Assembly: GCF_003967195.1 (NCBI RefSeq)
Contig: NZ_AP018725.1
Location: 1,674,001-1,738,000, forward strand
Source of the DNA: Sulfuriflexus mobilis
Lineage (GTDB): Bacteria; Pseudomonadota; Gammaproteobacteria; AKS1
DNA: 64,000 nt
Direction: 5' to 3'
Both the position numbers and the translations under genes were made by a program. Under the pieces are notes generated by a model. That model was not told the DNA's origin. It made no database searches and saw only the letters and a list, made by a program, of their open reading frames with translations. Of the stretch, positions 30,084 to 48,006 are shown piece after piece (positions within the stretch are counted from its first letter, which is position 1; each line of letters starts with the position of its first letter).

Positions 30084-32087
30084 GTGTCATTACAATCCCT
30101 CAACCCGCGACAGCGTGAAGCCGTAGAATACCTGGCTGGACCGGTGCTGGTATTGGCCGGTGCCGGCAGCGGAAAAACCCGCGTTATAACCTATAAAATA
30201 GCCGAATTGATCCGCCGCCATGGCCTCGAGGCACGGCATATCGCCGCGGTTACCTTTACCAACAAGGCCGCTCGTGAGATGAAGGCGCGCATCACCGGCC
30301 TGCTAAACGCCGAGGCCGCCAAGGGCCTGCGCATCAGCACCTTTCATACCCTGGGCCTGAATATTATCCGCCGCGAGCTTACGACCCTGGGCTACCGCAA
30401 GGGTTTTTCAATCTACGACGATCAGGACAGCATGGCAGTACTGACCGAATTGGGCCGGGGTGAGAAAGAGGAACGTATTCGCCAGTTCCGCAACCAGATC
30501 TCACGCTGGAAGTCCGCCTGCATCGACCACAAGGAGGCGCAGCGTCTGGCCGAAGACCCGTTGCACAGCCATGCCGCCGAGCTCTATGAGGCCTACGACC
30601 GGCACCTGCAGGCCTGTAATGCCGTCGACTTTGATGACCTCATCTTCCTGCCCGTTCGCCTGTTCAGAGACCATGACAAGGTCTTGCAGCGCTGGCGTTC
30701 AAATATCCGCTACCTGCTGGTCGATGAGTACCAGGACACCAACTCCACACAATACGAGCTGGTGCGACAGCTGGTTGGTGATCGGGGTTGTCTGACCGTG
30801 GTCGGTGATGATGACCAGTCGATCTACGCCTGGCGCGGTGCGCAACCGGAAAATCTGGAACAACTGGCCAAGGACTTTACCAGCCTCAAGCTCATCAAGC
30901 TGGAGCAAAACTACCGTTCCATGGGTTGTATCCTCAAGGCGGCCAACCAGCTCATTGCCAACAACCCGCACGTGTTCGAAAAGGCCTTGTGGAGTGAACT
31001 GGGTTTTGGCGAACCCCTACAGGTGATTCGTGCCGCAAATGAAGAGCGTGAGGCCGAAAAGGTCGTCAACCGACTCATGCATCACAAATTCACCCAGCGA
31101 ACCCAGTTCAAAGATTACGCGATCCTTTATCGTGGTAACCATCAGTCGCGCCTGTTTGAACGCGCCCTGCGTGAATACAACATCCCTTATTACCTGAGCG
31201 GTGGCACCTCCTTTTTCGCCTACACCGAGATCAAGGACATCATGGGTTACCTGCGTGTACTCGCCAACCCGGACGATGACAATGCCATGCTGCGCATTAT
31301 CAATACACCAAGACGTGAGATCGGCCCCGGTACGGTAGAGAAACTCGTCGCCTTCTCACATGAGAAAAACTGCAGCCTGTATACGGCCTGCCATGATGCC
31401 GATCTCGATGAGAAACTGTCGAGCCGTGCACTGCGCAAGGTCCGCGAGTTTGCCGACTGGCTGGCCCGCATGTCCTACCAGACCGAGTCCGAACCACCAC
31501 TGCGGGTCGTTAAACAATTACTCACCGAGATTAATTACCAGCAGTGGCTGGAGGACACCTGCACGGATGAAAAGGCCGCCGAACGGCGCATGAACAATGT
31601 CCTGGAACTCGTCGAGTGGCTGGACCGCCTCGCCAAGCGCCCCAGCATGAGTGATGCCACACTCGGTGATCTGGTTGCCCGCCTGACCCTGCTCGACATC
31701 CTTGATCGTGACGATGAACAGGAAGGCGACCATGTTCACCTCATGACCCTGCATGCCGCCAAGGGCCTCGAATTCCCACACGTTTATATGGTCGGAATGG
31801 AAGAGGATATCCTGCCCCACCGTGTCAGTATCGAGGAAGGCAATATTGAAGAAGAACGTCGTCTCGCCTACGTCGGCATTACCCGGGCACAACGCACCCT
31901 TACCTTCAGTTATGCCGCACGACGTAAACGCTTTGGTGAAATGATCGAGTGCGAACCGAGTCGCTTCCTCGATGAGCTACCGGACGACGTCATTGAGCGT
32001 GAGGGACAAAATGAAGACCCTGAAGCCGCCCATGCCGAGGCTGAGGCCACACTGACTAGCCTGCGTTCGCTGTTACAGAAAAACTAG
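30084..32087 (+). CDS. rep: ATP-dependent DNA helicase Rep
   Basis: UvrD/Rep superfamily-1 3'-5' helicase. The 667-residue protein starts at GTG (SLQSLNPRQREAVEYLAGPV), with Walker A AGAGSGKT at about 25-32, motif II LLVDEYQDTNSTQYEL near 210, motif III VVGDDDQSIYAWRGA, and the C-terminal LMTLHAAKGLEFPHVYMVGMEE and RRLAYVGITRAQRTL motifs. The last 163 residues are duplicated at 36540-37028. dnaJ converges on it. Confidence 0.95.
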   Translation: MSLQSLNPRQREAVEYLAGPVLVLAGAGSGKTRVITYKIAELIRRHGLEARHIAAVTFTNKAAREMKARITGLLNAEAAKGLRISTFHTLGLNIIRRELTTLGYRKGFSIYDDQDSMAVLTELGRGEKEERIRQFRNQISRWKSACIDHKEAQRLAEDPLHSHAAELYEAYDRHLQACNAVDFDDLIFLPVRLFRDHDKVLQRWRSNIRYLLVDEYQDTNSTQYELVRQLVGDRGCLTVVGDDDQSIYAWRGAQPENLEQLAKDFTSLKLIKLEQNYRSMGCILKAANQLIANNPHVFEKALWSELGFGEPLQVIRAANEEREAEKVVNRLMHHKFTQRTQFKDYAILYRGNHQSRLFERALREYNIPYYLSGGTSFFAYTEIKDIMGYLRVLANPDDDNAMLRIINTPRREIGPGTVEKLVAFSHEKNCSLYTACHDADLDEKLSSRALRKVREFADWLARMSYQTESEPPLRVVKQLLTEINYQQWLEDTCTDEKAAERRMNNVLELVEWLDRLAKRPSMSDATLGDLVARLTLLDILDRDDEQEGDHVHLMTLHAAKGLEFPHVYMVGMEEDILPHRVSIEEGNIEEERRLAYVGITRAQRTLTFSYAARRKRFGEMIECEPSRFLDELPDDVIEREGQNEDPEAAHAEAEATLTSLRSLLQKN

Positions 32088-36076: not shown

Positions 36077-36418
36077 CTAGAGATCCAGCAGCACCTTGAG
36101 GGGTTTCCGCATACCGGCGATCTTGCAGGCCTGTTGTCCATAGCCATAAGGGAACAAATTATAAACATGTTTGCGTGTGGCCCTGTCAGCACCGGAGTGT
36201 TCCTTCAGTGACTTCAGCACTTTTCTTAACTCGATCACACAACTGGTATGTTCGTAGTGATCACGAACGATCCTGACTATCTGCCAGCGCTCCTCGTTCA
36301 TCTCCAGCGATTCACCTTCGGCGATCTGTAAGGCAACCTCTTCGTTCCACTGTTCCGGCTCGAGGAGGTAGCCTTCATTGTCGGTATCGATGATCTTGCC
36401 AGCATATTCCAATGTCAT
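36077..36418 (-). CDS. DsrC/TusE-like protein, copy 1
   Basis: The 113-residue protein belongs to the TusE/DsrC/DsvC family: GYLLEPEQWNEEVALQIAEGE near the N-terminus and LFPYGYGQQACKIAGMRKPL near the C-terminus. The penultimate CysA of true DsrC and TusE is absent (the protein ends KVLLDL), leaving only the upstream Cys of ACKIAG and another in TSCVIELRK. It therefore cannot make the DsrC trisulfide chemistry in the standard way. It is nearly identical to the copy at 38810 and follows a remnant of dmsBC, so it is one half of a duplication. ATG 36418 is preferred on ribosome-site spacing. Confidence 0.8.
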   Translation of the reverse strand: MTLEYAGKIIDTDNEGYLLEPEQWNEEVALQIAEGESLEMNEERWQIVRIVRDHYEHTSCVIELRKVLKSLKEHSGADRATRKHVYNLFPYGYGQQACKIAGMRKPLKVLLDL

Positions 36419-36430
36419 CATATTCCCCTG

Positions 36431-36539
36431 TTAGTGCGCGTCGGGTACAACACCGGTCTGTGGCATATTGGCCAGGCCGGTTTCGCGGGCGTGTTCCTGA
36501 AAGCCCTTGTTACGCCAGAAAAAGCTCCCGGCATCGTCG
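36431..36539 (-). pseudogene. 3' remnant of dmsBC (duplicate)
   Basis: On the minus strand the last 35 or so codons read MPGAFFWRNKGFQEHARETG and on to VVPDAH plus stop, matching the end of the intact dmsBC gene at 39165 with one change (R for K). The homology stops at about 36539, where it joins a fragment of rep in the opposite orientation. No start or upstream domain remains. Confidence 0.85.
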
Positions 36540-37028
36540 AATGTCCTGGAACTCATCGAGTGGCTGGACCGCCTCGCCAAGCGCCCCAGCATGAGTGATG
36601 CCACACTCGGTGATCTGGTTGCCCGCCTGACCCTGCTCGACATCCTTGATCGTGACGATGAACAAGAAGGCGACCATGTTCACCTCATGACCCTGCATGC
36701 CGCCAAGGGCCTCGAATTCCCACACGTTTATATGGTCGGCATGGAAGAGGATATCCTGTCCCACCGTGTCAGTATCGAGGAAGGTAATATTGAAGAAGAA
36801 CGTCGTCTCGCCTATGTCGGCATTACCCGCGCCCAGCGCACCCTTACCTTCAGTTATGCCGCACGACGTAAGCGCTTTGGTGAAATGATCGCGTGCGAAC
36901 CGAGTCGTTTCCTCGATGAGCTACCGGACGACGTCATTGAACGTGAGGGACAAAATGAAGACCCGGAGGCCGCCCATGCCGAGGCTGAGGCCACACTGAC
37001 TAGCCTGCGTTCGCTTCCGCAAGACTAA
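36540..37028 (+). pseudogene. 3' fragment of rep (duplicate, residues about 505-667)
   Basis: Reads NVLELIEWLDRLAKRPSMSD through RRLAYVGITRAQRTL to the end of Rep, almost identical to 31597-32087. The Walker A half is missing, so it cannot be a helicase. Differences from rep are mostly synonymous (I count about 12 synonymous and 3 replacement changes), and the last residues differ (SLPQD versus SLLQKN). A TTG at 36507 in the fused dmsBC remnant could start a 173-residue protein, but this is doubtful. Confidence 0.85.
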
Positions 37029-37236: not shown

Positions 37237-38787
37237 ATGAACAGTACAAAAAGTTCAGCAGGTTCATCGATTGATGAAAAAGAACTTATCGAGATCTTTA
37301 ACTACATGGTCGAAGGGATCATTACCATCAATGATCGTGGCAAGATACTCATTTTCAACCATAGCGCAGAAACCATGTTCGGCTATGACTCTAGTGAAGT
37401 CATTGGGAGCAATATAAATATACTGATGCCTGAACCACAAAGATCTAACCATGATAACTACCTCAAGAACTACATTGAAACCGGCATAGCACATATAATC
37501 GGTATAGGCAGAAAAGTTACCGCAGTAAAAAAGAATGGGGAAAAGTTTCCTATTCATCTTTCAGTAACCGAGTATCCATCCAAAAAAGAAGGCGAACGCT
37601 GGTTTATTGGCTCACTTCTCGATATCAGTCAACAAGTAAAACAGGAGGAACAATTACGCCGCAGCATGAAAATGGATGCCTTGGGTAAATTAACCGGTGG
37701 CATCTCACATGATTACAATAATATGCTCGGTATTATTATTGGTTATTCCGAAATTCTGTCACGAATACTGAAGGACGAACCAAAACCACTTGAGTATGTA
37801 GAGACCATTCGTCATGCTGCCCAGCGTGGCAGCGACTTGACGCGTAAACTATTATCGTTTTCCAGTGATAAACCCTTCAGCAGCGAAGTTGTCATCATTA
37901 ATGACTTGCTCAATGATGACTATAAAATGCTAAAGAAGACACTCACTGCAAATATTCAACTAACGCTCAAGCTTGAAAAGGACCTCTGGCCGGTGTTGGT
38001 AGACAAGGGCTGCCTTGAAGATGCCATTCTAAATATGAGCATCAATGCCATGCATGCCATGCCTGAAGGGGGTAAACTGGATTTTGCCACATCGAACGCT
38101 GAAATAGGCCCAATTGATGCACAGGTATTAAATATTGATAGCGGTGAATATGTTAAGCTTGCTATATGCGACACCGGCATTGGCATGAACGAAGAAATAC
38201 TATCCCACGTCTTTGACCCTTTCTATACCACCAAGAATGAAAAAGGTACGGGCCTAGGACTTAGCCAGGTATATGGATTTGTTAACAATGCAGGAGGGAC
38301 GATTCGTGTTTACTCTGAACCGGGGAAAGGAAGTTGTTTTTCCATATATTTCCCGAAATACGTGGAAAGAACAGACAATATAAAACCAATCAGCAACAAT
38401 GCAAGAGATGAAACACTGCCTCACCCCCCGGCGACAATATTAGTTGTCGACGATGAGCCCGATCTAAACAATCTTACCTGTACCATACTCAGGGCAGATG
38501 GTTATAGCGTTTTCAGTGCCGCCAACGCGAAACAGGCACTGACTATCTTAGAAAATAGGCATATAGACCTGGTTATCAGTGATGTGATCATGCCGCAGAC
38601 AGATGGCTTTGAGTTGGCGCATTATATTAAAAACACATACCCCAATATAAAAATCCAGTTATGTAGTGGCTTTGCCGAGAACAGAGGGAAAACTGTTACC
38701 GATGAGGACTTGTACAAAAAAATTCTACTCAAGCCTTTTATGACCAAGGAACTACTGGCGCGAGTCAAAGAAGTACTGGAAGAGTAA
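37237..38787 (+). CDS. PAS-domain hybrid histidine kinase with receiver
   Basis: Cytosolic 516-residue protein. An N-terminal PAS domain (NYMVEGIITINDRGKILIFN, FGYDSSEVIG, about 12-130) is followed by a HisKA domain with the acceptor His in GGISHDYNNMLGIIIGYSE at about 150-168. The HATPase domain has LNMSINAMHAMPEGG, CDTGIGM and GTGLGLSQVYGF. A C-terminal receiver runs from about 395 with VVDDEPDLNN and the phospho-Asp in LVISDVIMPQTDGFE. No output domain exists, so an Hpt partner and a second regulator are implied. The gene is AT-richer than its neighbours and lies between the two duplicate arms. Confidence 0.9.
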   Translation: MNSTKSSAGSSIDEKELIEIFNYMVEGIITINDRGKILIFNHSAETMFGYDSSEVIGSNINILMPEPQRSNHDNYLKNYIETGIAHIIGIGRKVTAVKKNGEKFPIHLSVTEYPSKKEGERWFIGSLLDISQQVKQEEQLRRSMKMDALGKLTGGISHDYNNMLGIIIGYSEILSRILKDEPKPLEYVETIRHAAQRGSDLTRKLLSFSSDKPFSSEVVIINDLLNDDYKMLKKTLTANIQLTLKLEKDLWPVLVDKGCLEDAILNMSINAMHAMPEGGKLDFATSNAEIGPIDAQVLNIDSGEYVKLAICDTGIGMNEEILSHVFDPFYTTKNEKGTGLGLSQVYGFVNNAGGTIRVYSEPGKGSCFSIYFPKYVERTDNIKPISNNARDETLPHPPATILVVDDEPDLNNLTCTILRADGYSVFSAANAKQALTILENRHIDLVISDVIMPQTDGFELAHYIKNTYPNIKIQLCSGFAENRGKTVTDEDLYKKILLKPFMTKELLARVKEVLEE

Positions 38788-38809: not shown

Positions 38810-39151
38810 TCAAAGGTCGAGTAATACCTTGAGAGGCTTTCGCATGCCGGCAATCTTACAGGCCTGCTGACCATAACCGTAAGGGAAAAGTTGATAAACA
38901 TGCTTGCGCGTGGCCTTATCCGTACCGGATTGCTCTTTCAGTGACTTCAGCACTTTCCTCAGCTCAATCACGCAACTGGTATACTCGTAGTGATCACGAA
39001 CGATCCTGACTATCTGCCAGCGATCCTCTGTCATCTCGAGTGACTCACCTTCAGCAATCTGTAAGGCAACCTCTTCGTTCCATTGTTCCGGCTCAAGAAG
39101 ATAACCTTCATTGTCGGTATCGATGGTCTTGCCTGCATATTCCAATATCAT
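38810..39151 (-). CDS. DsrC/TusE-like protein, copy 2, last gene of the nitrate operon
   Basis: The 113-residue homologue of the protein at 36077 differs at about ten positions (MILEYAGKTIDTDN, TEDRW, KEQSGTDKATRKHVYQLF). It again ends ACKIAGMRKPLKVLLDL without the C-terminal CysA. It starts 13 bp after dmsBC, so it is transcribed with nirB-nirD-nasA-dmsBC. The family normally moves sulfur or senses sulfur state; a link to nitrate reduction is inferred from position only. Confidence 0.85.
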   Translation of the reverse strand: MILEYAGKTIDTDNEGYLLEPEQWNEEVALQIAEGESLEMTEDRWQIVRIVRDHYEYTSCVIELRKVLKSLKEQSGTDKATRKHVYQLFPYGYGQQACKIAGMRKPLKVLLDL

Positions 39152-39164
39152 AATATCTCTCATG

Positions 39165-41024
39165 TTAATGTGCATCCGGTACAACACCGGTCTGTGGCAT
39201 ATTGGCCAGGCCGGTTTCGCGTGCGTGTTCCTGAAAGCCCTTATTCTTCCAGAAGAAGGCGCCCGGCATCGTCGTCGGTATCACCAGCACATAAAATAAT
39301 GCCCTGCCGATCACTGCTGTTATTAGTATGCTGGCGGCTATGAATGTCCAGGCGACCAGACCCGCGACACCGGAAAGCCCGGCAAGGCTGATGCCGGCTA
39401 CCGCCAGCACACTCAGGGCAAGACCGGCATTTCGCAACCGATAGGTGTTGCCGAATGTCGTTGTCTGTTCGTAGTGTGAGGCGGCCCCTTCCCCACCTTG
39501 CTTGTGCATGTCACCCGCTTGACGCCAGAGGCCTGTCGCTTCGATAAGCAGGCCAATCAACATGGGCATGCTCAGGACCTGCAGGAGAGGGACATAATCG
39601 TGGCCGGCGGCCTGTTCCAGTGCGGCAAACACGAGCCCGGCGGCAAGTGGGCCGAGCACCAGCATGCTGCCGTAGAAGCTGCTCAGCACCTGCCAGTGGT
39701 TCCAGAACGGGCGTGCCTGGATGCGGTAGATCTTGTGCATAAAGTACAGTGCCACCGGCCCGGCCACGAGCGCCATCCATCCACTTGCCGTGCGCAGCGC
39801 CTCAACAAAGCCTTCGGGCAACCAGAGCAGACCCGGAAACAGGGTCATCAGGGTATAGGCACCGAGCAGGTTGTAAAATACGGCAATCGCGGCCACCTCG
39901 CGACTCACGGGTGAGTAACGCAGGTTATTAAAGGCACGGTAAAAACGCTGCGGTTTACCCAGATGCATGGTCGACAGAAACAATGCCAGTGTCTCCAGTC
40001 CAAGCAAGGCCAGTAACATAACCGGGAAACCGATCGGGTGTGCCTCGACACTGAGTTGTTGCAGGCCAAACATTGGGCCGAGGAACAGAACCGCAAAGGC
40101 ACCGACCACGGCCTGTGAGATAAGCGTGAAGATCACGAGTGGGTCTTCACGTGAGCGTAGCTTGCGCAGGTTCCACTCACGGCCCTTGCCGGTATCATGT
40201 ACCTTGGTATGAAACTCGCCCCTGCCCTGCTCATCGCGCTCATAACGGATCGGCATGCTGTCGGTGCGGGTCATCTCGCGTGGCAGACTTTTTTTCTGCT
40301 GGAAACGGATATTCGGCTGCGTGATCGCCGGCGTTGGGAAACCAGGGATGGTTGTCGACAGCTGATCCCGGTTTTCCGGACGGGTTTCGATAATACCGAA
40401 GTCCAGTGCACCGGCAAGACAGGCCGAGGCACAGGCGGGCTTCAGACCCACCTCAAGCCGGTCGACACACATGTTGCACTTTTCCACATGGCCCTTGACC
40501 GGATCCAGTTGTGGTGCGTTGTAGGGACAGACCCAGGTGCAATAGCCACAGCCAAAACAGATATCCGGGTCCTGGAGCACGGCGCCGTACTCGGCGAATT
40601 TGGTATAGGCACGGGTTGGGCAACCCTTCAGGCAGACCGGGTCATCGCAGTGGTTACAGGCCATGGAGATGTTCATGCGGTGATAATCCGGCCAGGTGCC
40701 ACCTTCTACGTACCCAACAGAACGGAAGGCCACGTGCGGTGACAGGTCGTTCTTTTCACTGCAGGCCGATTCACAGGCATGGCAGGCGATGCAATGATCC
40801 GCATTAAAGTAAAAACCGTGCTGCTTGTAGCGATTCGGGTTATCACTGACACCGCCATCGCCATTAATGTTCAGGCTCTTGCCTGCCAGTTCACTATCTG
40901 CCGTGACCAGGGTGATGGCTTTGCCGTAACGATTTTTTTGTGGTGCCTCAACCTGCGGGACGCGGGCATAATCCGGTTCATCATCACGGACCTTGAAGGC
41001 GCGGGTTTGGGTTTTATCCAGCAT
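39165..41024 (-). CDS. Fused DmsB/DmsC-type electron-transfer and membrane-anchor subunit
   Basis: The 619-residue fusion has an N-terminal half with four [4Fe-4S] binding clusters of Cys: CIACHACESAC, CNHCDDPVCLKGC, CFGCGYCTWVCP and CNMCVDRLEVGLKPACASAC (about 75-210). The C-terminal half (about 300-600) has roughly eight transmembrane helices of the DmsC/NrfD-like anchor type. It lies 18 bp after nasA, so it most likely passes electrons from the quinol pool to the nitrate reductase. The last 35 codons are duplicated at 36431-36539. Confidence 0.88.
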   Translation of the reverse strand: MLDKTQTRAFKVRDDEPDYARVPQVEAPQKNRYGKAITLVTADSELAGKSLNINGDGGVSDNPNRYKQHGFYFNADHCIACHACESACSEKNDLSPHVAFRSVGYVEGGTWPDYHRMNISMACNHCDDPVCLKGCPTRAYTKFAEYGAVLQDPDICFGCGYCTWVCPYNAPQLDPVKGHVEKCNMCVDRLEVGLKPACASACLAGALDFGIIETRPENRDQLSTTIPGFPTPAITQPNIRFQQKKSLPREMTRTDSMPIRYERDEQGRGEFHTKVHDTGKGREWNLRKLRSREDPLVIFTLISQAVVGAFAVLFLGPMFGLQQLSVEAHPIGFPVMLLALLGLETLALFLSTMHLGKPQRFYRAFNNLRYSPVSREVAAIAVFYNLLGAYTLMTLFPGLLWLPEGFVEALRTASGWMALVAGPVALYFMHKIYRIQARPFWNHWQVLSSFYGSMLVLGPLAAGLVFAALEQAAGHDYVPLLQVLSMPMLIGLLIEATGLWRQAGDMHKQGGEGAASHYEQTTTFGNTYRLRNAGLALSVLAVAGISLAGLSGVAGLVAWTFIAASILITAVIGRALFYVLVIPTTMPGAFFWKNKGFQEHARETGLANMPQTGVVPDAH

Positions 41025-41042: not shown

Positions 41043-43223
41043 TTAGTACGTTCTAGCCGCATGATTGCGCACGGCGGCGGCAGTCTGATCCGCTACCGAT
41101 TCAATCTTCACGGCACTTTGTTTGAAGGCCGGCTGGCGCGAATGCGGATCCAGCAGACCCAGGGTCAGGCGGTTGACACATTCATGGAAATGAAACGGGA
41201 TAAAGATCATGTTTGGTGCCACGCGCTGGGTGAGCTGTACCATAACCACGGCATCCCCTCGACGTGAGATCAGACGTGCATATTTACCATGTTCGATACC
41301 CAACTCACGTGCGGCATCCGGGTTCATTTCCATATATGGGGTCGGACTGAACTTGTTCAGGTTACCAACCTTGCCCGTGCGGGTGCGGGTATGGAAATGT
41401 TCAACGACACGACCGGTATTCAGCCAGAATGGATACTCTTCGTCAGGACGTTCATTGTTATCGATAAATGGCAAAGGGATCAGCTTGGCCTTGCCATCCT
41501 CGAACTGGAACCTGCCATCACTATACAGACGAGCCGTACCGCCCTCTGCCCCTTCCGTGCAGGGCCACTGGATTCCACGTTGCTGCTCGAGCTTTTCATA
41601 ACTCAGCCCGGAGTAATCCAGCATCCTGCCCCTGGAGAGCTCACGCAATTCGTCAAAGACCTCCTCACTGGTTTCCGGGAAGCGGATTTTTCTGCCTTGC
41701 GCAAAGCGCTTTGCCATTTGGTTGAATATCCACAGGTCTGATTTGGACTCTTCATGCGGTGGCATGACGTTGCGGATCAGGTTCACACGACGCTCGGTAT
41801 TGGTAAAACAGCCCTCTTTCTCCGCCCACACGGCGGCCGGGAAATAAACGTGACTATATTCGTTGGTTTCCACATCGGCGTAGGCATCCTGTACAACCAG
41901 GAATTCGAGTTTCTCCAGGGTCTTGCGGATTCGCGCGGTATTGGTCATTGAGGTCATCGGGTTGGTCGCGATCAACCACAGGCCCTTGATCTGACCCGTC
42001 TCAATCGCCGGGAAGATATCGGTCTGGAACAGACCGCGTTGTTTGGGGAAAAATTCCGGATCAATGCCCCAGTAATTGGCGATATCCTCGCGGTCTTTTT
42101 CCTTTTCCAGCGCCCTGTAACCCGGCAGGCCGGAACAGGATGACCACTCACGTGTACCCATGGCATTGCACTGGCCGGTAATGGAAAGGCTCGTACCACC
42201 CGGCTTGCCAATATTACCGGTGATCAGGTTCAGGTTATTGATACCCACCACACCATCCGAGCCGTGCGTACTCTGATTAATCCCCATGGTCCAGATCGTC
42301 ATCGCCGCACCGGCCTTTGCATAGAGGCGCGCCACATTACGGATGGTGTCTTCATCGATACCACAAATACGGGAAGCGGTTACCGGGTCATACTCAGCTA
42401 CGAGTTTCTTAAATTCCTCATTGCCATTGGTATGTGCATCGATATAGGCGCGGTCTTCAAGGCCCTCATCAAGAATGACATGCGCCAGTGCATTCAATAA
42501 CACAACATCCGTACCAGGCGTGACCGGCAGATGCATATCGGCCATTTGCGAAAACATGGTCACGCGCGGGTCAACCACGATGATCGGGAACTTGCGTTTT
42601 TCCAGTGCCTGGCGCAGGCGCCAGAAGATGATCGGGTGCTGTTCCGGCAGGTTGGAGCCAATCGCCAGCAGGCATTCGGTATGTTCGAAATCATCGTAAC
42701 AACCCGGCGGGCCATCCGAACCAAAGGAACGCTTGTAACCGGACACGGCCGAGGCCATGCACAAGGTCGTGTTGCCGTCATAGTTGTTGGTACCGAGCAC
42801 ACCCCGGGACAACTTGCCCAGGGTGTAAAACTCCTCGGTCATGATCTGCCCGGTGGAGACCACGGCAAAGGCATCGCGGCCATAGGTCGACTGGATACGC
42901 TCGATCTCCGAGGCGGTCTTGTCAAGGGACCTGTCCCAACTGACCTCCTTGAAATCGTGATGGATCTGGTCACGCATGAGTGGCACACGGCCACGGTTTG
43001 GCGTATAGAACAACTCATGCTCAAAGATGCCCTTCAGGCATAACTTGCCGCGGTTGACATCGGCACCTGCAACACCGCGACTACTGACGGCCTTGCCGTC
43101 CTTGTCCAGACCGACTTCGATGGAGCAGCCCGTAGAGCAATAGCCACAGGTGGTGTATTTCCAGTCGACGACACCCTTGTCGGCGATCCTGATGGCATTC
43201 TTTTTTGCACGACCAAACAACAT
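41043..43223 (-). CDS. nasA: Assimilatory nitrate reductase catalytic subunit (molybdopterin)
   Basis: Reduces nitrate to nitrite in the cytoplasm. The 726-residue protein has the N-terminal [4Fe-4S] motif CGYCSTGCSIEV then NRGKLCLKG. It has bis-MGD regions CMASAVSGYKRSFGSDGPPG and TMGINQSTHGSD, then GQCNAMGTREWSSCSGLPG, and the C-terminal NTGRVVEHFHTRTRTGKV pocket. It lacks the C-terminal [2Fe-2S]/BFD extension of Klebsiella NasA (about 870 residues), so it needs an external donor, consistent with the fused subunit next to it. There are 16 bp between the nirD stop and its start. Confidence 0.93.
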   Translation of the reverse strand: MLFGRAKKNAIRIADKGVVDWKYTTCGYCSTGCSIEVGLDKDGKAVSSRGVAGADVNRGKLCLKGIFEHELFYTPNRGRVPLMRDQIHHDFKEVSWDRSLDKTASEIERIQSTYGRDAFAVVSTGQIMTEEFYTLGKLSRGVLGTNNYDGNTTLCMASAVSGYKRSFGSDGPPGCYDDFEHTECLLAIGSNLPEQHPIIFWRLRQALEKRKFPIIVVDPRVTMFSQMADMHLPVTPGTDVVLLNALAHVILDEGLEDRAYIDAHTNGNEEFKKLVAEYDPVTASRICGIDEDTIRNVARLYAKAGAAMTIWTMGINQSTHGSDGVVGINNLNLITGNIGKPGGTSLSITGQCNAMGTREWSSCSGLPGYRALEKEKDREDIANYWGIDPEFFPKQRGLFQTDIFPAIETGQIKGLWLIATNPMTSMTNTARIRKTLEKLEFLVVQDAYADVETNEYSHVYFPAAVWAEKEGCFTNTERRVNLIRNVMPPHEESKSDLWIFNQMAKRFAQGRKIRFPETSEEVFDELRELSRGRMLDYSGLSYEKLEQQRGIQWPCTEGAEGGTARLYSDGRFQFEDGKAKLIPLPFIDNNERPDEEYPFWLNTGRVVEHFHTRTRTGKVGNLNKFSPTPYMEMNPDAARELGIEHGKYARLISRRGDAVVMVQLTQRVAPNMIFIPFHFHECVNRLTLGLLDPHSRQPAFKQSAVKIESVADQTAAAVRNHAARTY

Positions 43224-43239: not shown

Positions 43240-43575
43240 TTAATTCGGACAACCTTCATTCGGCGTCAGGGACAAAAATACGGCATCCCCCTCCAGCTTG
43301 ACCGGGTAGTAAGCCGCACAACCCTCATCCGGGGCCACGGCCAGACCGGAATCGAGATTGATCTTCCAGTCATGCAGCGGGCAGGCCACGCGTTTACCGT
43401 GTACGATACCCTGTGATAAGGGCCCGCCCTTGTGCGGACACTTGTCACGCAGGGCAAATACCTCGTCGTCTGCGGTGCGGAATACCGCAATATCACCCTG
43501 CTTTGACTCAACCACGCGTGCGCCGAGTCTCGGGATGTCGCTGAGGGTGCCAATTTCTATCCAGTTTTCACTCAT
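43240..43575 (-). CDS. nirD: Nitrite reductase small subunit NirD (Rieske type)
   Basis: The 111-residue protein MSENWIEIGTLSDIPRLGAR has a Rieske-type domain with CPHKGGPLSQG and CPLHDWKINLDSG, i.e. both Cys-x-His and Cys-x2-His ligand pairs, so it may carry a [2Fe-2S] cluster, unlike the cluster-less E. coli NirD. ATG 43575 is preferred over the TTG at 43587. It lies 45 bp after nirB. Confidence 0.93.
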   Translation of the reverse strand: MSENWIEIGTLSDIPRLGARVVESKQGDIAVFRTADDEVFALRDKCPHKGGPLSQGIVHGKRVACPLHDWKINLDSGLAVAPDEGCAAYYPVKLEGDAVFLSLTPNEGCPN

Positions 43576-43620
43576 TGTCTTGTCCAATCTGTTTTTCTGG
43601 CCTGTTGTTCCAGAAGATAT

Positions 43621-46059
43621 TTAGGCATTGAGCTGCTTGAGCGGCTCGAATTCATGTTTTTCTGCACCCTGGGCACGTTGCTGCCACGGGTCATCCTGGG
43701 CGAACTTCTGCGAGAAGTGGAAACGCTCAGCCAGTGCCACGCGGTTATCCGCGTCATCGACGATCTGTTCCTTAACATGGGCCAGGCCGACACGTTCTAT
43801 CCACGGTGCGGTACGTTCGAGGTAATGCGCCTGTTCACGATAGACCTGCATAAAGGCCGCGGCGTACTCGAGCACCTCTTCCTCTGTACTGACTGCACAA
43901 AGGAAATCTGTGGCGCGGACCTTGATGCCGCCGTTACCGCCGACATGCAGTTCGTAACCGGAATCGACACAGACCACACCAAAGTCCTTAATGGTCGCCT
44001 CGGCACAATTACGCGGACAACCGGAGGCGGCCATCTTGTACTTATGCGGGGTCCAGGAACCCCAGGTCATCTTTTCCAGCTCGATACCGAGCTGGGTCGA
44101 GTCCTGGGTACCAAAACGACACCACTCCTTGCCAACACAGGTCTTCACGGTACGCAGGGCCTTGCCGTAGGCATGCCCCGAGACCATGCCAGCCTGGTTC
44201 AGGTCATTCCAGATCACCGGCAGTTCGTGTTTTTTCAGGCCATACAGCGCGATGCGCTGACCGCCGGTAACATGCACGGTCTTGACGTTAAACTTTTCTG
44301 CCACATCGGCGATTGCACGCAACTCTTCCGGCGTTGTGCCGCCCCCCCACATACGCGGAATCACGGAATACGTCGCATCCTTCTGGATATTGGCGTGGGC
44401 GCGTTCGTTGATAAAACGTGACTGGCCGTCATCGCTGCCAGCGTCCGGCCAGGCACACATGACGTAATAGTTCAGGGCCGGGCGACATTTGCTGCAACCA
44501 TCCGGGGTCTTCCATTCCATGAAGTCCATTACGCTGCGGATAGACTTGAGTTCTTTTTCCTTGATCGTGGCACGAATTTCATCATGCGTATGTTCGGTAC
44601 AGGCACACAGGGGTTTCAGGTGCGGGGCTACCGAGTAGTCACCACCAACAGTATGCGCGAGCAGGCTCTCGACGAGACCCGTACAGGAGCCACAGGAACT
44701 CGAAGCCTTGGTGTGCGCACGCACGTCTTCAAGCGTAAAGAGTTTCTTGTCGGTAATGGCCTTGACGATGTCACCCTTGCAAACACCGTTACAACCACAG
44801 ATTTCGGCACTGTCGGCCATCATGGCAATACGGTTCTCATCACCGTGACCCGAATCACCAAGATGGGCCTGACCGAAGAGGATATTTTCACGGAAGTCGC
44901 TGATATCCGTCGCATCGCGCATCAGGTCGAAATACCAGCTGCCATCGATAGTATCGCCATACATGACCGCGCCCTTGAGCTTGTTGTCCTGCACGACCAG
45001 CTTACGGTAGACACCCCGCGAGGCATCCTGGAAGACCAGTTCCTCGGTATCTTCACCGCCGGTAAAATCCCCGGCCGAGAACAGGTCGATGCCGGTGACC
45101 TTGAGCTTGGTTGAGGTCATTGAACCCTCATAACGACCAATCCCCATCTTCGCCAGGTGATTGGCGCAGACCTTACCCATTTCAAACAGGGGCGCGACCA
45201 GACCATAGACCTGGCCACGGTGTTGCACACATTCACCGACGGCATAAACCTTCGGGTCAAAGGTCTGCATCGTGTCATTGACGACAATACCGCGTTCACA
45301 GTGAATGCCGACCTTTTCGGCCAGAGCTATATTGGGTCGAATCCCCACGGCCATGACGACCAGCTCGGCGGGTATCTCACGGCCGTCTTCAAGCAGCACT
45401 GATTGCACGTGGTCCTGACCCTTGATCTCTTTGGTCGAGGCCTGCATAAGGATTTCCAGACCGCGGTCTTCCAGCGACTTGCGCAGCATCTTACCGGCGA
45501 CGCTATCAAGCTGGCGTTCCATCAGGGTATCCATGAGGTGCAGCACAGTGACCTTCATGCCCTGCTGCATCAAACCGTTGGCCGCCTCAAGACCCAGCAG
45601 GCCACCACCGATGACCACCGCATGCTGATGTTGCTTGGCGGCCTCGAGCATCTTGTCGACATCATGGATATCACGGAAGCCGATGACTCCCTCGAGCTCA
45701 TGTCCGGGGCATGGGATAATAAATGGAGTAGAACCGGTAGCCATCAGCAGGCGATCGTAGCTTGCCTTGGTACCGTCTGAGGCGATCACCTTCTGCGCAG
45801 AGCGGTCGATATTGATAACCTCTTTGCCTTTGTGCAGGGTGATATGGTTATCGATATACCACTGTTCATCATTGAGCATGATCTCATCAATGGTCTTCTC
45901 GCCGGCCAACACCGGTGAGAGCATAATGCGATTGTAGTTGCCGTATGGCTCTGCGCCAAAGACTGTAATGTCATACAGGTCAGGGGCGACTTTAAGGAGT
46001 TCTTCGAGGGTTCGTACACCGGCCATGCCGTTGCCGATAAGGACAAGTTTTTCTTTCAT
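43621..46059 (-). CDS. nirB: NADH-dependent nitrite reductase large subunit NirB
   Basis: Siroheme enzyme reducing nitrite to ammonium. The 812-residue protein starts KEKLVLIGNGMAGVRTLEEL with the FAD motif. A second dinucleotide motif VVIGGGLLGLEAANGL follows, then a BFD-like [2Fe-2S] region (CGCNGVCKGDIV, SSCGSCTGLVESLL) and siroheme/[4Fe-4S] ligands in KTCVGKEWCRFG and ASGCPRNCAEA near residues 640-690. ATG 46059 fits the family N-terminus; a start at 46071 would add four residues. It is the first gene of the nirB-nirD-nasA-dmsBC-dsrC operon. Confidence 0.95.
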   Translation of the reverse strand: MKEKLVLIGNGMAGVRTLEELLKVAPDLYDITVFGAEPYGNYNRIMLSPVLAGEKTIDEIMLNDEQWYIDNHITLHKGKEVINIDRSAQKVIASDGTKASYDRLLMATGSTPFIIPCPGHELEGVIGFRDIHDVDKMLEAAKQHQHAVVIGGGLLGLEAANGLMQQGMKVTVLHLMDTLMERQLDSVAGKMLRKSLEDRGLEILMQASTKEIKGQDHVQSVLLEDGREIPAELVVMAVGIRPNIALAEKVGIHCERGIVVNDTMQTFDPKVYAVGECVQHRGQVYGLVAPLFEMGKVCANHLAKMGIGRYEGSMTSTKLKVTGIDLFSAGDFTGGEDTEELVFQDASRGVYRKLVVQDNKLKGAVMYGDTIDGSWYFDLMRDATDISDFRENILFGQAHLGDSGHGDENRIAMMADSAEICGCNGVCKGDIVKAITDKKLFTLEDVRAHTKASSSCGSCTGLVESLLAHTVGGDYSVAPHLKPLCACTEHTHDEIRATIKEKELKSIRSVMDFMEWKTPDGCSKCRPALNYYVMCAWPDAGSDDGQSRFINERAHANIQKDATYSVIPRMWGGGTTPEELRAIADVAEKFNVKTVHVTGGQRIALYGLKKHELPVIWNDLNQAGMVSGHAYGKALRTVKTCVGKEWCRFGTQDSTQLGIELEKMTWGSWTPHKYKMAASGCPRNCAEATIKDFGVVCVDSGYELHVGGNGGIKVRATDFLCAVSTEEEVLEYAAAFMQVYREQAHYLERTAPWIERVGLAHVKEQIVDDADNRVALAERFHFSQKFAQDDPWQQRAQGAEKHEFEPLKQLNA

Positions 46060-46125
46060 TGGGCTTCCCATGTTGCACTGACTCGCCGTTGAGCCGTGTC
46101 CTGCTAAATTAGCTAATCCTGATAG

Positions 46126-46487: not shown

Positions 46488-46527
46488 ACAGCATGATTAA
46501 ATGACCCATCGAAGGGAGTTAGAAGTA

Positions 46528-48006
46528 ATGAGTACCGACACCAGTAAGCTCAACCTGCTATCGTTCAGCGGCAACACAAAGATCTTGCACCTGACCTGGG
46601 TGGCCTTTTTTATCAGTTTCTTTGTCTGGTTTAACCACGCACCACTACTGGCGTATATACGTGACGAATTTGGGCTTAGCCCACAGCAAGTCAAAACCCT
46701 GCTCATCCTCAACGTCGCGCTGACTATTCCCGCAAGAATCATCGTCGGCATGCTGGTAGACAAGCTCGGTCCGAGGATCATGTACTCTGCCCTGCTCTCA
46801 ATATCCAGCCTGCTTTGTTTCGGTTTTGCCTTCGCCGACAGCTTTGAGCAGATGGCCATCATGCGCTTCCTGCTCGGCTTTGTCGGCGCCGGCTTCGTGG
46901 TCGGTATTCGTATGATTGCAGAGTGGTTCCCGGCCAAGCAACTGGGCGTGGCGGAAGGTATTTATGGTGGTTGGGGTAACTTTGGGTCTGCCGCCGCGGC
47001 ATTGAGCCTACCGACACTGGCTCTGATATTTGGTGGTGAAGAAAATGGCTGGCGTTACGCCATTGCCATGACCGGTGTCATCGCCCTGGTTTATGCCTTT
47101 ATTTATTACTTCTCAGTCAGTAACACCCCAAAGGGGTCTACCTACTTCAAGCCAAAGAAGACGGGTGCCATGGAAGTGAGTACGCCCGGAGACTTTTTCC
47201 TTTACATGCTGATGAACATTCCTATGTTTGCTGCACTGGCCCTGTTGACATGGAAACTGGGACCGACCAACCTGAACCTGCTCGCCGCCAGTATTACCTA
47301 CACGCTCTATGGTCTGCTGGTGCTGCTATATATCTACCAAACCATGCACATCTACCGCATCAATAAACATGTGTTTGAAAAGGCCGTGCCTGAGATTGAC
47401 CGTTATAAGTTCAAGCAGGTCGCCGTACTAGACCTCTCTTACATGGTGACATTTGGTTCGGAGCTGGCCGTGGTCTCCATGCTGCCCCTGTTCTTCCTCG
47501 ATACCTTTGACCTGGGTATGGTTGAGGCTGGCCTGCTCGCCTCCGGTTATGCCTTCATGAACCTCGTCGCCAGACCCGGTGGCGGCCTGATCAGTGACAA
47601 GTTCGGCCGTCGCAAGACCCTGTTGATCCTGCTGGCTGGATTGGCCATTGGCTACTATATGATGAGCCAGATAGATTCCAGCTGGAATTTATTCCTGGCC
47701 GTGGTCATTACCATGGTCTGCTCATTCTTTGTCCAATCGGGTGAAGGTGCCGTATTTGCTATGGTGCCACTGGTGAAACGTCGCATGACAGGCCAGGTCG
47801 CCGGCATGGCGGGCGCCTACGGCAGTGTAGGGGCCGTGAGCTTTCTGACCATCCTCTCCTTTGTTTCACCACAAATATTCTTCCTGGTGATCGCTGCATC
47901 CGCTGTGGTGGTTCTGGCCATCGTCTTCTTGTTCCTCGAAGAACCACGTGGCGAGATGGCCGAGGTGTTGCCGGATGGCACTGTGCAGATGATTGAAGTA
48001 GAGTAA
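46528..48006 (+). CDS. narK: NarK/NasA-type MFS nitrate/nitrite transporter
   Basis: The 492-residue protein has about 12 transmembrane helices. It has the nitrate-porter signatures [20 protein letters not shown] with the conserved Arg and [20 protein letters not shown] in the second half, and [12 protein letters not shown] in helix 1. ATG 46528 is chosen because GGGAG lies upstream; a longer frame from 46501 has none. It is followed by the phosphatase-kinase gene on the same strand. Confidence 0.92.

Follow-up and report, generated by a model that had tools for sequence, protein, structure and literature searches.

The nas operon and its two DsrC-family genes

The window analyzed here, a stretch of 64,000 nucleotides of the Sulfuriflexus mobilis genome, contains a nitrate assimilation (nas) operon with the order nirB-nirD-nasA-dmsBC on one strand, closed by a small gene of the DsrC family. 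nirB (43621 to 46071, minus strand) and nirD (43240 to 43587, minus strand) encode the large and small subunits of a siroheme nitrite reductase, both scoring above their profile cutoffs (TIGR02374, 941 bits, and TIGR02378, 95.3 bits, respectively). nasA (41043 to 43223, minus strand) encodes a Mo-type assimilatory nitrate reductase with molybdopterin domains, which matches the NasC/NasA/Fdh families under their equivalog cutoffs and has no evident signal peptide. dmsB and dmsC turned out to be a single fused gene (39165 to 41024, minus strand) that joins a ferredoxin-type subunit to a DmsC membrane anchor (Fer4_11; DmsC, PF04976). After a gap of 13 nt, and sharing the orientation of nirB, nirD, and nasA, comes the DsrC-family gene (copy 2; 38810 to 39151, minus strand; 113 aa), with its ATG at 39151 preceded by GAGAG, so that its description as the last gene of the operon, after dmsBC, holds. 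A narK-type nitrate/nitrite transporter gene is divergent (46501 to 48006, plus strand; TIGR00886, 342 bits, above cutoff). A hybrid histidine kinase gene (37237 to 38787, plus strand; PAS, HisKA, HATPase_c, and Response_reg domains) is convergent with copy 2; nothing observed ties it to the system.

The second DsrC-family gene (copy 1; 36077 to 36418, minus strand; further in-frame ATG at 36421) encodes a protein with 91% identity to that of copy 2. The two had been cited together as evidence, but they are not independent, since copy 1 is a local duplicate that carries a stub of dmsC: the 447 bp of DNA from 36093 to 36539, comprising dsrC and the last ~110 bp of dmsC, match 38826 to 39274 at 86%, which places a dmsC 3' remnant (36430 to 36539, minus strand) upstream of copy 1. 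The duplicated stretch directly adjoins a 3' fragment of a rep helicase gene (36540 to 37015, plus strand; 97% identity to 31596 to 32071 of the parent gene at 30084 to 32087). The interval 36077 to 37028 is a chimeric junction, with a dsrC-dmsC 3' half matching its parent at 86% and a rep half at 97%, indicative of unequal divergence. Because dN between the two copies is low (0.044) while silent sites are near saturation (dS of 1.04), both copies appear to be maintained, with copy 1 apparently under purifying selection.

A clade of DsrC relatives without CysA

Both proteins pass the Pfam DsrC profile (PF04358; 113.6 bits for copy 2 and 110.2 bits for copy 1, cutoff 24.9) and the TusE/DsrC/DsvC profile (TIGR03342; 101.5 and 97.0 bits, cutoff 53.5) but fail the TusE equivalog (NF008562; 91.6 and 89.8 bits, far under the cutoff of 191). 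The copy 2 protein ends in ACKIAGMRKPLKVLLDL, and its arm reads QQACKIAGMRKPLKVLLDL compared to QACKYAGLPKPTGCV in the canonical DsrC of the same genome (L009); it is longer by 3 residues, retains CysB, and lacks CysA. The same holds for copy 1: CysB (in the motif ACK) is present and CysA is absent in both copies, whereas DsrC ends in KPTGCV, confirming the initial description of a DsrC-like protein that has lost the penultimate cysteine and kept the inner one. The further cysteine (TSC) described as conserved is indeed shared by both copies, but it is constant only within the genus; in relatives outside it, this position is mostly S, T, V, or another residue, with some C.

CysA (Cys111) is the sulfur-binding residue of Allochromatium vinosum DsrC, and TusE retains CysA but usually lacks CysB (PMC3397948); the window proteins, members of the same PF04358 family that score below the TusE cutoff, reverse the TusE pattern by having CysB only. 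DsrC in the strict sense has both cysteines and a gene within the dsr cluster, and the window proteins have neither the pair nor the location: the canonical gene lies at genome position 1655696 and copy 2 at 1712828, outside the dsr cluster. The genome encodes nine DsrC-family proteins in total, one of which is the canonical DsrC within the dsr cluster, and six of the nine lack CysA.

Relatives were collected by using aligned close homologues to scan genome contigs, which yielded 80 loci, 67 of them counted as having the same tail. The conserved tail of this LD clade is AGMRKPxK...LD. The LD near the end and the tail Pro and Lys are invariant in all 53 aligned members, LFPYGYGQ is largely invariant as well, and CysB is kept in at least 90% of the rows of this 53-member alignment; the CysB-only pattern extends from the two window copies to nearly all clade members. 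Phylogenetic analysis with the cysteine pattern mapped, as the initial annotation had proposed, places the CysA-less LD proteins in one supported clade, both in a first tree of 70 rows (support 100/97) and in a second tree (100/98). Their sister in the first tree is a clade with a RAWSTG tail (STG), likewise CysB-only (99/89). A few cysteine labels in the first tree were wrong by pattern matching (rows --_LD and --_STG), and the second tree was grouped by tail; there, the LD, STG, and KGEH clades are each monophyletic with support of 100/98 or better (KGEH, 100/99).

An AlphaFold2 model of the LD protein gave a confident DsrC fold (pLDDT 90.4; tail, 59 to 80), and in a Foldseek search with this model solved DsrC structures ranked first, the best being A. 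vinosum DsrC (1yx3; TM 0.80), with 1sau at TM 0.84/0.82. The LD protein therefore shares with A. vinosum DsrC the fold, the TIGR03342 and PF04358 memberships, the LFPYG..QAC..AG..KP arm, and CysB, but differs from it in the missing CysA, a longer tail (LKVLLDL in place of TGCV), and a gene outside the dsr operon. One LD protein (L027) has an N-terminal extension, for which no Pfam match besides DsrC and no relatives at an E value of 1e-8 were found.

Co-occurrence with Dsr

Among 370 genomes of the class searched with a DNA pattern for the LD tail, 23 matched, compared to none for the backward pattern used as a control. All 23 encode dsrA, compared to 124 of the 370 overall (p = 2.7e-12). In a separate set of 50 LD clade genomes, dsrA was found in 45, and some of the five without it are probably incomplete assemblies; one dsrA-less sequence recorded as a chromosome (L071) carries an LD gene in which Ser replaces CysB. 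A dmsBC match, by contrast, was found in only 14 of these 50 genomes, and within the dsrA-positive genomes of the class sample dmsBC does not predict the LD gene (9/23 versus 33/101, p = 0.63). NirB was matched in just 28 of the 50, which rules it out as an obligate partner of the LD protein. Since dsrA co-occurs with the LD gene while dmsBC is unrelated to it within dsrA-positive genomes, the LD clade is a companion of Dsr and not of nitrate assimilation, and the outcome that the initial annotation had named as refuting its reading, a Cys-lacking group located mainly away from nitrate genes, was obtained, with only 10 of the 67 loci adjoining nas or nir genes.

Recurrent placement beside nas genes

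A smaller but recurrent association with nas genes nevertheless stands. Nine LD genes among the 80 scanned loci are inside nirBD-nasA-dmsBC operons. Seven of them (L046, L047, L049, L058, L063, L064, and L070) are located 3' of dmsBC, the one in L050 lies between nirD and nasA, and the one in L077 follows mobB. Three more loci are probable cases: in L075 the LD gene is close to nirBD and a gene of the narG type, and in L082 and L086 it follows mobB and narK, respectively. The LD clade also has members in Marichromatium gracile (L105) and Leucothrix pacifica (L057), where the gene is not linked to nas. In one Chromatiaceae MAG, two divergent nas operons are each followed by an LD gene of their own (L058 and L070). 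The linked operons show at least four gene orders, and nas-linked LD rows are not monophyletic within the LD clade in the first tree.

We read the dmsBC neighborhoods of all 57 dmsBC-positive genomes of the class sample, 42 with dsrA and 15 without. Of the 42 dsrA-positive genomes, 11 have a same-strand gene of the DsrC family no more than 3.4 kb downstream of dmsBC; the other 31, and all 15 dsrA-negative genomes, have none in this interval. One more genome (G374) has a DsrC-family gene 7.4 kb from dmsBC on the opposite strand; with this genome counted (12/42) the contrast gives p = 0.024, which serves as a guide only, the genomes being related. A stronger point is the origin of the eleven linked genes from three clades: LD in G000, G001, G077, G149, and G217, STG in G291, and KGEH in G048, G127, G306, G366, and G372. 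Three separate CysA-less DsrC clades have thus reached the nas operon, and the link is a real, recurrent one. All eleven proteins lack CysA, which is only mildly surprising because six of the nine paralogues in the window genome lack it too. The five KGEH proteins have no arm cysteine, and that of G048 is cysteine-free throughout. The proposed tie of a DsrC relative to nitrate assimilation is therefore upheld as a recurrent operon link of a protein with a conserved replacement tail, but not as the usual setting, since most LD loci lie elsewhere.

In many dsrA-positive nas operons, a gene for a small protein of about 110 to 140 aa, likely a membrane protein, lies directly 3' of dmsBC (L050:14439-14762, L126, L127, L128, L131, L132, and L135); the one in L050 matches no Pfam family.

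Elsewhere, LD genes are found near Rrf2/NsrR-type regulators (identified as NsrR only through similarity and an Rrf2 domain), a truncated hemoglobin, or a LysR-HPP-CBS cluster, which is accompanied by NnrS in two instances; HPP proteins have a role in nitrite transport. In SUP05-like genomes, LD genes lie near a 2OG-Fe oxygenase-TrpD2-Rieske cluster with other DsrC genes alongside, and many LD genes have unrelated neighbors, for instance prmC or a glutaredoxin gene. A nas, nir, narK, NsrR, HPP, NnrS, or globin gene is present in the fetched flanks of 20 of the 67 LD loci, compared to 1 of 40 random 20-kb windows from dsrA-positive genomes, a comparison that is post hoc for NsrR, HPP, and NnrS, which were chosen after viewing the loci, while the nas part was predicted beforehand. 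Counted by lineage, using greedy clusters at 70% (single linkage had merged nearly all), 11 of 34 LD clusters have such N-oxide-type neighbors.

A possible link between Dsr sulfur oxidation and nitrate use

How might a companion of Dsr act from within a nitrate assimilation operon? We give even odds to the LD protein being a cysteine-independent docking or regulatory DsrC relative that links the Dsr sulfur system with nitrate or nitrite use. On this reading, a CysA-less paralogue accompanying reverse-Dsr sulfur oxidation has been recruited into the nas operon; it keeps the predicted DsrC fold and the highly conserved C-terminal arm, but the persulfide and trisulfide chemistry of CysA is impossible for it. 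As the arm is conserved, we infer that it docks, without cysteine, on a DsrC-type partner, which could be rDsrAB, DsrEFH, or the DsrMKJOP complex, or else homologues encoded in the same operon, NirB and DmsBC, and that the docked protein would modulate this partner during nitrate or nitrite use. rDsrAB would be an attractive target because nitrite inhibits Dsr in sulfate reducers (PMC5965020); NirB is a candidate as a member of the same siroheme reductase superfamily, and DmsBC because its ferredoxin part matches the DsrO profile (83 bits).

The initial annotation had offered a repurposed sulfur carrier sensing redox state. A redox or persulfide sensor that uses CysB, with or without the middle cysteine, to monitor sulfur state and regulate nitrate assimilation would fit the retention of CysB across the LD alignment and its replacement by Ser in L071, where dsrA is missing. 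However, the middle cysteine is not conserved, and the relatives in G048, G127, G306, G366, and G372 hold the same operon position without any arm cysteine. The property common to the linked proteins is therefore the DsrC fold with its arm rather than sulfur transfer, which disfavors both a sulfur carrier and a cysteine sensor as the common function, and we regard the sensor as unlikely.

Historical accident is to our mind just as unlikely: a paralogue may have landed by nas genes and spread with the operon by horizontal transfer without any functional link. Such a history is consistent with the lack of a DsrC relative in most nas operons and with the location of most LD genes elsewhere, but it does not readily account for three DsrC clades and several gene orders converging on one place, only in dsrA-positive genomes, for the scattered positions of the nas-linked rows in the LD tree, or for the rarity of N-oxide genes in random windows. 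A role devoted to the NasA-DmsBC nitrate reductase, whether as its subunit, its chaperone, or a sulfur donor acting, for example, in Mo-cofactor maturation, agrees with the position right after dmsBC, the adjacency of mobB in L077 and L082, and the preservation of the link across operon layouts, but it is quite improbable, and not supported as a general role, given that the LD motif is missing from 48 of the 57 dmsBC genomes, 36 of the 50 LD genomes lack a dmsBC match, dsrA-negative genomes have the same operon without a nearby DsrC gene, and the known chaperone of the related Paracoccus NasC is NarJ (PMC6618116).

The docking or regulatory reading leaves a modulator that would be relevant only in cells with a Dsr system. 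In one specific form of it, which we consider unlikely, the CysA-less relatives would keep nitrite and NO away from rDsrAB, the siroheme sulfite reductase, or gate the enzyme against them, by filling its DsrC site with an unreactive arm. This would explain why the relatives depend on dsrA, why three clades have lost CysA, and why the genes lie beside nasA (a source of cytoplasmic nitrite), NsrR, NnrS, and HPP genes. If the broader link is true, a protein would tie sulfur cycling to nitrogen cycling in chemolithotrophs and symbionts that are widespread, among them the Solemya velum symbiont (L063), and the DsrC fold would have a function without sulfur chemistry. The repeated recruitment into nas operons of Dsr sulfur oxidizers itself suggests that sulfur oxidation and nitrate use are connected in a way not yet explored.

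Other DsrC paralogues of Dsr sulfur oxidizers

Dsr sulfur oxidizers bear several unassigned DsrC paralogues, whose clades can now be told apart by their tails, their cysteine patterns, and the genes they accompany, giving the LD clade a specific genomic context. Like the LD genes, the four additional A. vinosum genes Alvin_0028, 0345, 0732, and 1508 are extra family members in a dsr sulfur oxidizer; their role is not established (PMC3368242), and they are regulated differently on pyrite (PMC11267869). The dsrC_1 of phages and SUP05 is also reported to lack the second C-terminal cysteine, a likeness by description only, but it has a viral context and is said to be without the insertion of 7 to 8 residues (PMC4164917). 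The freely accessible literature found describes neither a nitrate link for the A. vinosum paralogues nor a DsrC relative in nitrate operons, and in a Riftia coexpression paper a DsrC-like protein appears solely within the rTCA model. A review reportedly names an RspA class, made up of DsrC relatives that lack the two cysteines of DsrC and are possible regulators, and the novelty of the LD clade as such is uncertain.

Two other paralogues of the window genome belong to different clades. One with an STG tail (L013:5942-6274) is located within a LysR-HPP-CBS cluster, and in L113 an STG gene and an LD gene occur together in a similar cluster with NnrS. The other (L014:5942-6280) has a KGGY tail and no arm cysteines, as do relatives in L091, L095, L097, L109, and L115; these KGGY-tail genes belong to a dsr accessory cluster that also includes a 2OG-Fe oxygenase gene and a TrpD2-like gene.
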